DNA of 64,000 nucleotides from NCBI RefSeq assembly GCF_002135345.1, contig NZ_NEGI01000006.1, positions 62,001 through 126,000 on the forward strand. Direction: 5' to 3'. This DNA is from Acinetobacter sp. ANC 4648 (lineage in GTDB: Bacteria; Pseudomonadota; Gammaproteobacteria; Pseudomonadales; Moraxellaceae). Position 1 is the first letter of the stretch; every line of letters starts with the position of its first letter. The translations under genes and the position numbers were made by a program. The notes under the pieces were generated by a model. That model was given only the letters and a program-made list of their open reading frames with translations, made no database searches and had not been told where the DNA came from. Below, piece after piece: positions 50,200-50,372 of the stretch.

Positions 50200-50372
50200 T
50201 CACAGCAATCAAGTTTTTTACACCGGCATCCGTAGAAAACTTCGCTGACCTTGGCTCCTATGAGACCCATAAACTCATACTTCAAACATAGATTTGGAAC
50301 AGCAGCCTAAATCAAAATGAATGAAGTATTTTGGCCGACGATTTAATATCACTCGAATCGTCGGCTTTATTT
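50200..50372 (+). ncRNA. Candidate structured RNA (sRNA or 5' leader/attenuator)
   Basis: Three hairpins follow each other. The first is AAGTTTT (50211-50217) with AAAACTT (50236-50242). The second is TTGGCT (50251-50256) with AGCC-T-AA (50304-50310), enclosing TATGAG (50259-50264) with CTCATA (50274-50279). The third, GCCGACGATT (50334-50343) with AATCGTCGGC (50356-50365), is followed by TTTATTTTAT like a terminator. No plus-strand gene lies upstream for that terminator to serve. A TATAGT at 50186-50191 could be a -10. It may be a free-standing RNA or an attenuator of the gene at 50457. It matches no RNA family I can name. Confidence 0.45.

Follow-up and report, generated by a model that had tools for sequence, protein, structure and literature searches.

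The stretch of Acinetobacter sp. ANC 4648 analyzed here (64,000 nucleotides of contig NZ_NEGI01000006.1, hereafter the window) contains, at 50093–50456, a gap that harbors all the structures of an original prediction made from the letters alone: three successive hairpins, the last an orphan terminator, read there as a possible new small RNA (sRNA) or attenuator. The gap lies between a minus-strand gene of the ABZJ_00895 family and a plus-strand gene for a small exported protein starting at 50457. We conclude that the segment is very probably the gene of an orthologue of SabS, a free-standing, trans-acting sRNA transcribed by the extracytoplasmic function (ECF) sigma factor SigAb and probably forming the output arm of the SigAb response. 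The features are as follows.

50195–50373, plus strand: small RNA gene, probable sabS orthologue (match of covariance model R1; start probably at about 50193–50197, end in the T tract of the terminator)
50195–50252, plus strand: hairpin 1, with the invariant loop GGCATCC at 50225–50231 (fold; arm-permutation test of the apical stem)
50277–50329, plus strand: hairpin 2, with the conserved loop AACAGCAGC at 50298–50306 (fold; arm-permutation test of the stem)
50333–50373, plus strand: intrinsic terminator hairpin with the conserved loop ATCACTC, then a T-rich tail (fold; three fully compensatory stem pairs; loop kept even in divergent copies)
50158–50164, plus strand: –35 element GTCAACC of a SigAb-type (ECF sigma) promoter (exact motif and spacing recur at the RNA and at sigAb across the genus)
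50181–50186, plus strand: –10 element CGTTAT of the same promoter (motif recurrence; SigAb –10 CGTT)
50113–50157, plus strand: A/T-rich tract 5′ of the –35 element, possible UP element (T-rich tract in relatives; putative function)
49646–50092, minus strand: gene of an ABZJ_00895 family protein, divergent neighbor and syntenic marker outside the RNA (NF038216, E 7e-37)

Fold and surroundings of the RNA

The predicted minimum free energy of segment 50196–50376 is –48.7 kcal/mol, versus a mean of –30.1 (sd 3.7) for 200 dinucleotide shuffles, none of which folds as well (z = –5.04); the three hairpins and the intrinsic terminator first noticed are thus present in the sequence and fold better than all shuffled versions. 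The terminator has a stem of 10 bp, GCCGACGATT (50334–50343) with AATCGTCGGC (50356–50365), followed by TTTATTTT, and the stem reaches 12 bp in the predicted fold. Its T-rich tail would be compatible with an Hfq-dependent sRNA. The ends originally proposed, near 50195 and 50372, agree with the promoter and the terminator located here, and the copy matched by the covariance model (G000:C11:112192-112373) corresponds to window positions 50191–50372. The RNA is about 175–180 nt long. In the alignment of the relatives, the blocks follow the order promoter, hairpin 1 (GGCATCC), variable linker, hairpin 2 (AGCAGC), and terminator (ATCACTC). The ensemble predicted for the RNA of the window leaves the hairpin loops unpaired.

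A middle stem with two exclusive pairings had suggested a switch. Both pairings can be drawn in the window, at 50259–50264 with 50274–50279 and at 50258–50262 with 50287–50291, but they are not conserved across species, and the linker that bears the alternative varies in sequence and length. Of TATGAG/CTCATA, the minimum free energy fold retains only 3 bp (GAG/CTC), and the true second hairpin is the one at 50277–50329.

These pairings, together with the exported-protein gene lying on the same strand 85 bp downstream from the RNA, are what speaks for a riboswitch-like leader or attenuator of that gene. The neighborhood speaks otherwise. The RNA divergently adjoins an ABZJ_00895-family gene in 29 of 30 loci, and the first downstream gene belongs to 12 unrelated families in 30 genomes and is on the opposite strand in 8/30. 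The exported-protein gene of the window is not next to the RNA in any of the 29 relatives. Homology ends at the terminator, and Rfam gives no riboswitch match. Since different genes follow the RNA in different species and neither of the exclusive pairings is kept, the switching leader is not supported; we consider it refuted by synteny and hardly credible. The other possibility raised at the outset, an independent RNA of about 170 nt, holds: the RNA has its own conserved promoter, a terminator and genus-wide conservation, and A. baumannii has a published transcript at the equivalent position.

A search against Rfam 15, as had been suggested, yields at the gathering threshold only tmRNA and tRNA matches in the window. 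With a permissive E-value, the best match in the gap reaches 18.9 bits for a cut-off of 44 bits, and the matches there are chance matches only. No Rfam 15 family covers the RNA.

The promoter and its probable sigma factor

Upstream of the RNA, the sequence GTCAACC-N16-CGTTAT stands at a fixed spacing from the RNA in the aligned species. An AAC in the –35 element with a CGT in the –10 element is the pattern of ECF promoters. A SigAb promoter was taken as –35 GTCAAC and –10 CGTT, 16–18 bp apart and directly 5′ of the RNA; the site in the window has both elements in that place, with a spacer of 17. Where the RNA starts, a generic sigma-70 scan, which is blind to ECF promoters, detected none.

The exact motif GTCAACC-N16-CGTTAT occurs 100 times in 60 genomes, compared with 9 times for the reversed control. 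Reading 30 of these loci placed 16 at an ECF sigma gene and 14 at the RNA, 13 of them clear and the fourteenth (L074) a divergent copy recognized by its terminator. The sigma gene is of the PRK09047/ECF type with a DUF3106 neighbor (Pfam/NCBIfam), and the expected operon partners are present. Autoregulation is usual for ECF genes. The genome of the window itself encodes sigAb (G000:C7:105823-106461), preceded by the same promoter motif (G000:C7:105759-105787).

In A. baumannii, SigAb directly targets sigAb itself, relA, and the sRNA SabS (Bacon et al. 2025, PMC12153292). The –35 GTCAAC was defined there by mutagenesis, with a –10 CGTT, and SigAb promoters use an A/T UP-like tract (PMC12153292).

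At the relA loci (L136–L145), a SigAb-type site (GTCAAC, 16-bp spacer, CGTT) is found 5′ of relA in 8/10 species, ∼730–770 bp before the relA start and apparently within the preceding coding region; in the genome of the window, the site has one mismatch in the –10 element (CGTC). An exact SigAb-type motif also occurs just 3′ of rho in three genomes (G036, G061, and G071; loci L126, L127, and L128). It was set aside, since it reads antisense into the 3′ end of rho and overlaps the rho terminator hairpin.

Distribution and covariation in Acinetobacter

A DNA search with the gap gave matches in 31 of 36 other Acinetobacter genomes, all stopping at the terminator, but no match in 21 genomes of the order that belong to other genera. 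With the covariance model R1, built from 25 sequences, the RNA is recovered from 138 of 149 Acinetobacter genomes; 93 genomes representing 15 other Moraxellaceae genera gave no match. The RNA is single copy except for one terminator-only remnant. This remnant (L160, G140:C3:228576-228713) repeats the SabS terminator in degenerate form; it lies beside inserted genes, 1.4 kb away from the intact copy.

Three of the 11 genomes without a model match (G032, G072, and G099) are also without sigAb; these are small Acinetobacter genomes that appear to lack sigAb and SabS alike. The other eight have sigAb. In six of them the copy is divergent (61%–63% identity), and the remaining two (77%–79%) are genomes 64%–91% complete. 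In G020, G026, and G014, a highly divergent RNA can be placed by its SigAb motif, which adjoins the divergent ABZJ_00895-type gene. The terminator loop ATCACTC is retained in G020 (L134) and G026 (L135), where the RNA body is unrecognizable, and a GGCATC loop in G014. In the clade of L005 and L074, SabS is without the AGCAGC loop of hairpin 2, with hairpin 1 and the terminator loop retained.

The stems of hairpin 2 vary widely between species and yet pair, with changes that include G-C to A-U and T-A to A-T or G-C. In this stem, 89.7% of the cells are paired versus 72.2% with permuted 3′ arms (maximum 81.7% in 5000 permutations). For the apical stem of hairpin 1, the values are 90% versus 78% (maximum 88.6%). 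When arms are swapped between species, weakening is seen in 71.5% of the comparisons for hairpin 1 and in 85% for hairpin 2. The permutation and swap controls leave relatedness in place, so that the structure is supported by them but not proven. The terminator is too conserved for the arm-permutation test; three of its stem pairs are altered on both sides (fully compensatory). On a plain MAFFT alignment, RNAalifold recovers only the terminator and a 3-bp tip, because the hairpin 2 stems are misaligned there; loop-anchored counting and arm swapping were applied in its place.

Probable identity with SabS and possible mode of action

Taken with the published work, the RNA of the window is, with high probability, a SabS orthologue. 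Likeness to SabS comprises the genus, the SigAb –35/–10 motif at 17-bp spacing, the intergenic sRNA gene, and the fact that this RNA type is the only recurrent strict-motif SigAb site besides sigAb itself; SabS was, however, described in another species. A second match is art55/ABUWs060 of A. baumannii AB5075, 179 nt on the plus strand and 9,680 bp from tmRNA (Weiss et al. 2016, PMC5320573). The corresponding distance, between tmRNA and the start of the RNA, is 9,734 bp in A. nosocomialis NIPH 2119, where the strand relations are those of art55 and the RNase P RNA lies on the far side. This arrangement (∼9.7 kb from tmRNA, on the opposite strand, RNase P RNA beyond) is that of both A. nosocomialis and A. 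pittii, and position and strand relative to tmRNA and RNase P RNA agree with those of art55/ABUWs060, the coordinates compared being those of art55 and not of sabS. Art55, on the other hand, is a transcript from RNA-seq only, with no function given. The RNA is thus conserved but not, as first proposed, new: its A. baumannii counterpart is already in the literature under the name SabS and, almost certainly, also under that of art55.

Three points weigh against this identification. It draws on promoter, locus, and uniqueness rather than on sequence identity with A. baumannii sabS. Three putative sRNA genes lie among the SigAb motifs of Bacon et al. (PMC12153292). And SigAb dependence and the copper/nickel phenotype come from A. 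baumannii, so that the same behavior would hold here by analogy. In that species, knockdown of sigAb or of sabS leads to copper and nickel sensitivity, SigAb activity is raised by copper, and the genes that are down-regulated when SigAb is overexpressed coincide with the partners that published ligation data give for SabS (PMC12153292).

SigAb, which responds to copper excess in A. baumannii, would transcribe the RNA from the promoter at 50158–50186, giving a transcript of ∼175–180 nt that would end at the terminator at 50333–50373. The RNA would then, most likely, base pair in trans with mRNAs via its three hairpin loops, which are exposed and nearly invariant. Such loop-mediated pairing would make SabS the output arm of the SigAb response. 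The loops are candidate pairing sites; what the analysis itself shows is the structure, the promoter motif, the conservation, the synteny, and the co-occurrence with sigAb. Crude duplex tests of SabS against the 5′ UTR of its divergent neighbor (mean z –0.21, n = 29) and against the region around the start of sigAb (mean z +0.24, n = 13) gave no signal, and there is therefore no evidence of autoregulation.

Tentatively, each loop may be a kissing or seed site of its own: GGCAUCC and, in the terminator, AUCACUC, both invariant, and AGCAGC, nearly so. The terminator loop, which is kept in copies whose remaining RNA is no longer recognizable, would possibly be the ancestral targeting site. If so, one three-loop RNA would carry most of the SigAb stress response genus-wide. 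The same loops could be read as a protein sponge in which repeated GCANCC-type motifs (AGCAACC, GGCAUCC, and AGCAGCC) titrate an RNA-binding protein, like CsrB/CrcZ: nearly every species has two related motifs in exposed loops of the hairpins, and many have a third (AGCAACC). There are just two or three copies, the 5′ one is absent from a whole clade, L005 has lost the second loop, and no protein is known to read such a motif; we regard a sponge as unlikely. Less probable still is a SigAb-dependent transcript devoid of regulatory function, or a mere terminator for upstream transcription. Bacon et al. do suggest that some SigAb promoters yield quickly degraded RNAs (PMC12153292), but the covarying stems, the loops invariant across the genus, and the copper/nickel sensitivity after sabS knockdown in A. 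baumannii argue against this reading.

Many A. baumannii strains are described as having no ECF sigma factor other than SigAb, and SabS is the suspected go-between in its effect on hundreds of genes. To this the present analysis adds a near genus-wide extension of SabS, two stems that appear to covary, and a map of candidate pairing sites in the conserved loops. The three loops form a short list of positions to mutate and to match to targets, and a covariance model is supplied for a family absent from Rfam.

Among other RNAs, the commonest sRNA in the Hi-GRIL-seq chimeras of AB5075 is sRNA76 (30.6% of chimeric reads; PMC11472050), which, judged by the order of the numbering, may be SabS. Aar of Acinetobacter is likewise a regulatory RNA restricted to the genus (AB5075 861,839–862,019; ∼100 nt with an unpaired 5′ seed CUCC; PMC11472050). 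Its position in AB5075, described size, and architecture all differ from those of the RNA studied here.

MicA, RybB, and MicL are sigma-E-dependent sRNAs of enterobacteria. They resemble the proposed role of SabS in that an sRNA serves as the output arm of an ECF sigma factor, but they have no sequence or locus relation to it, and SigAb is not RpoE.
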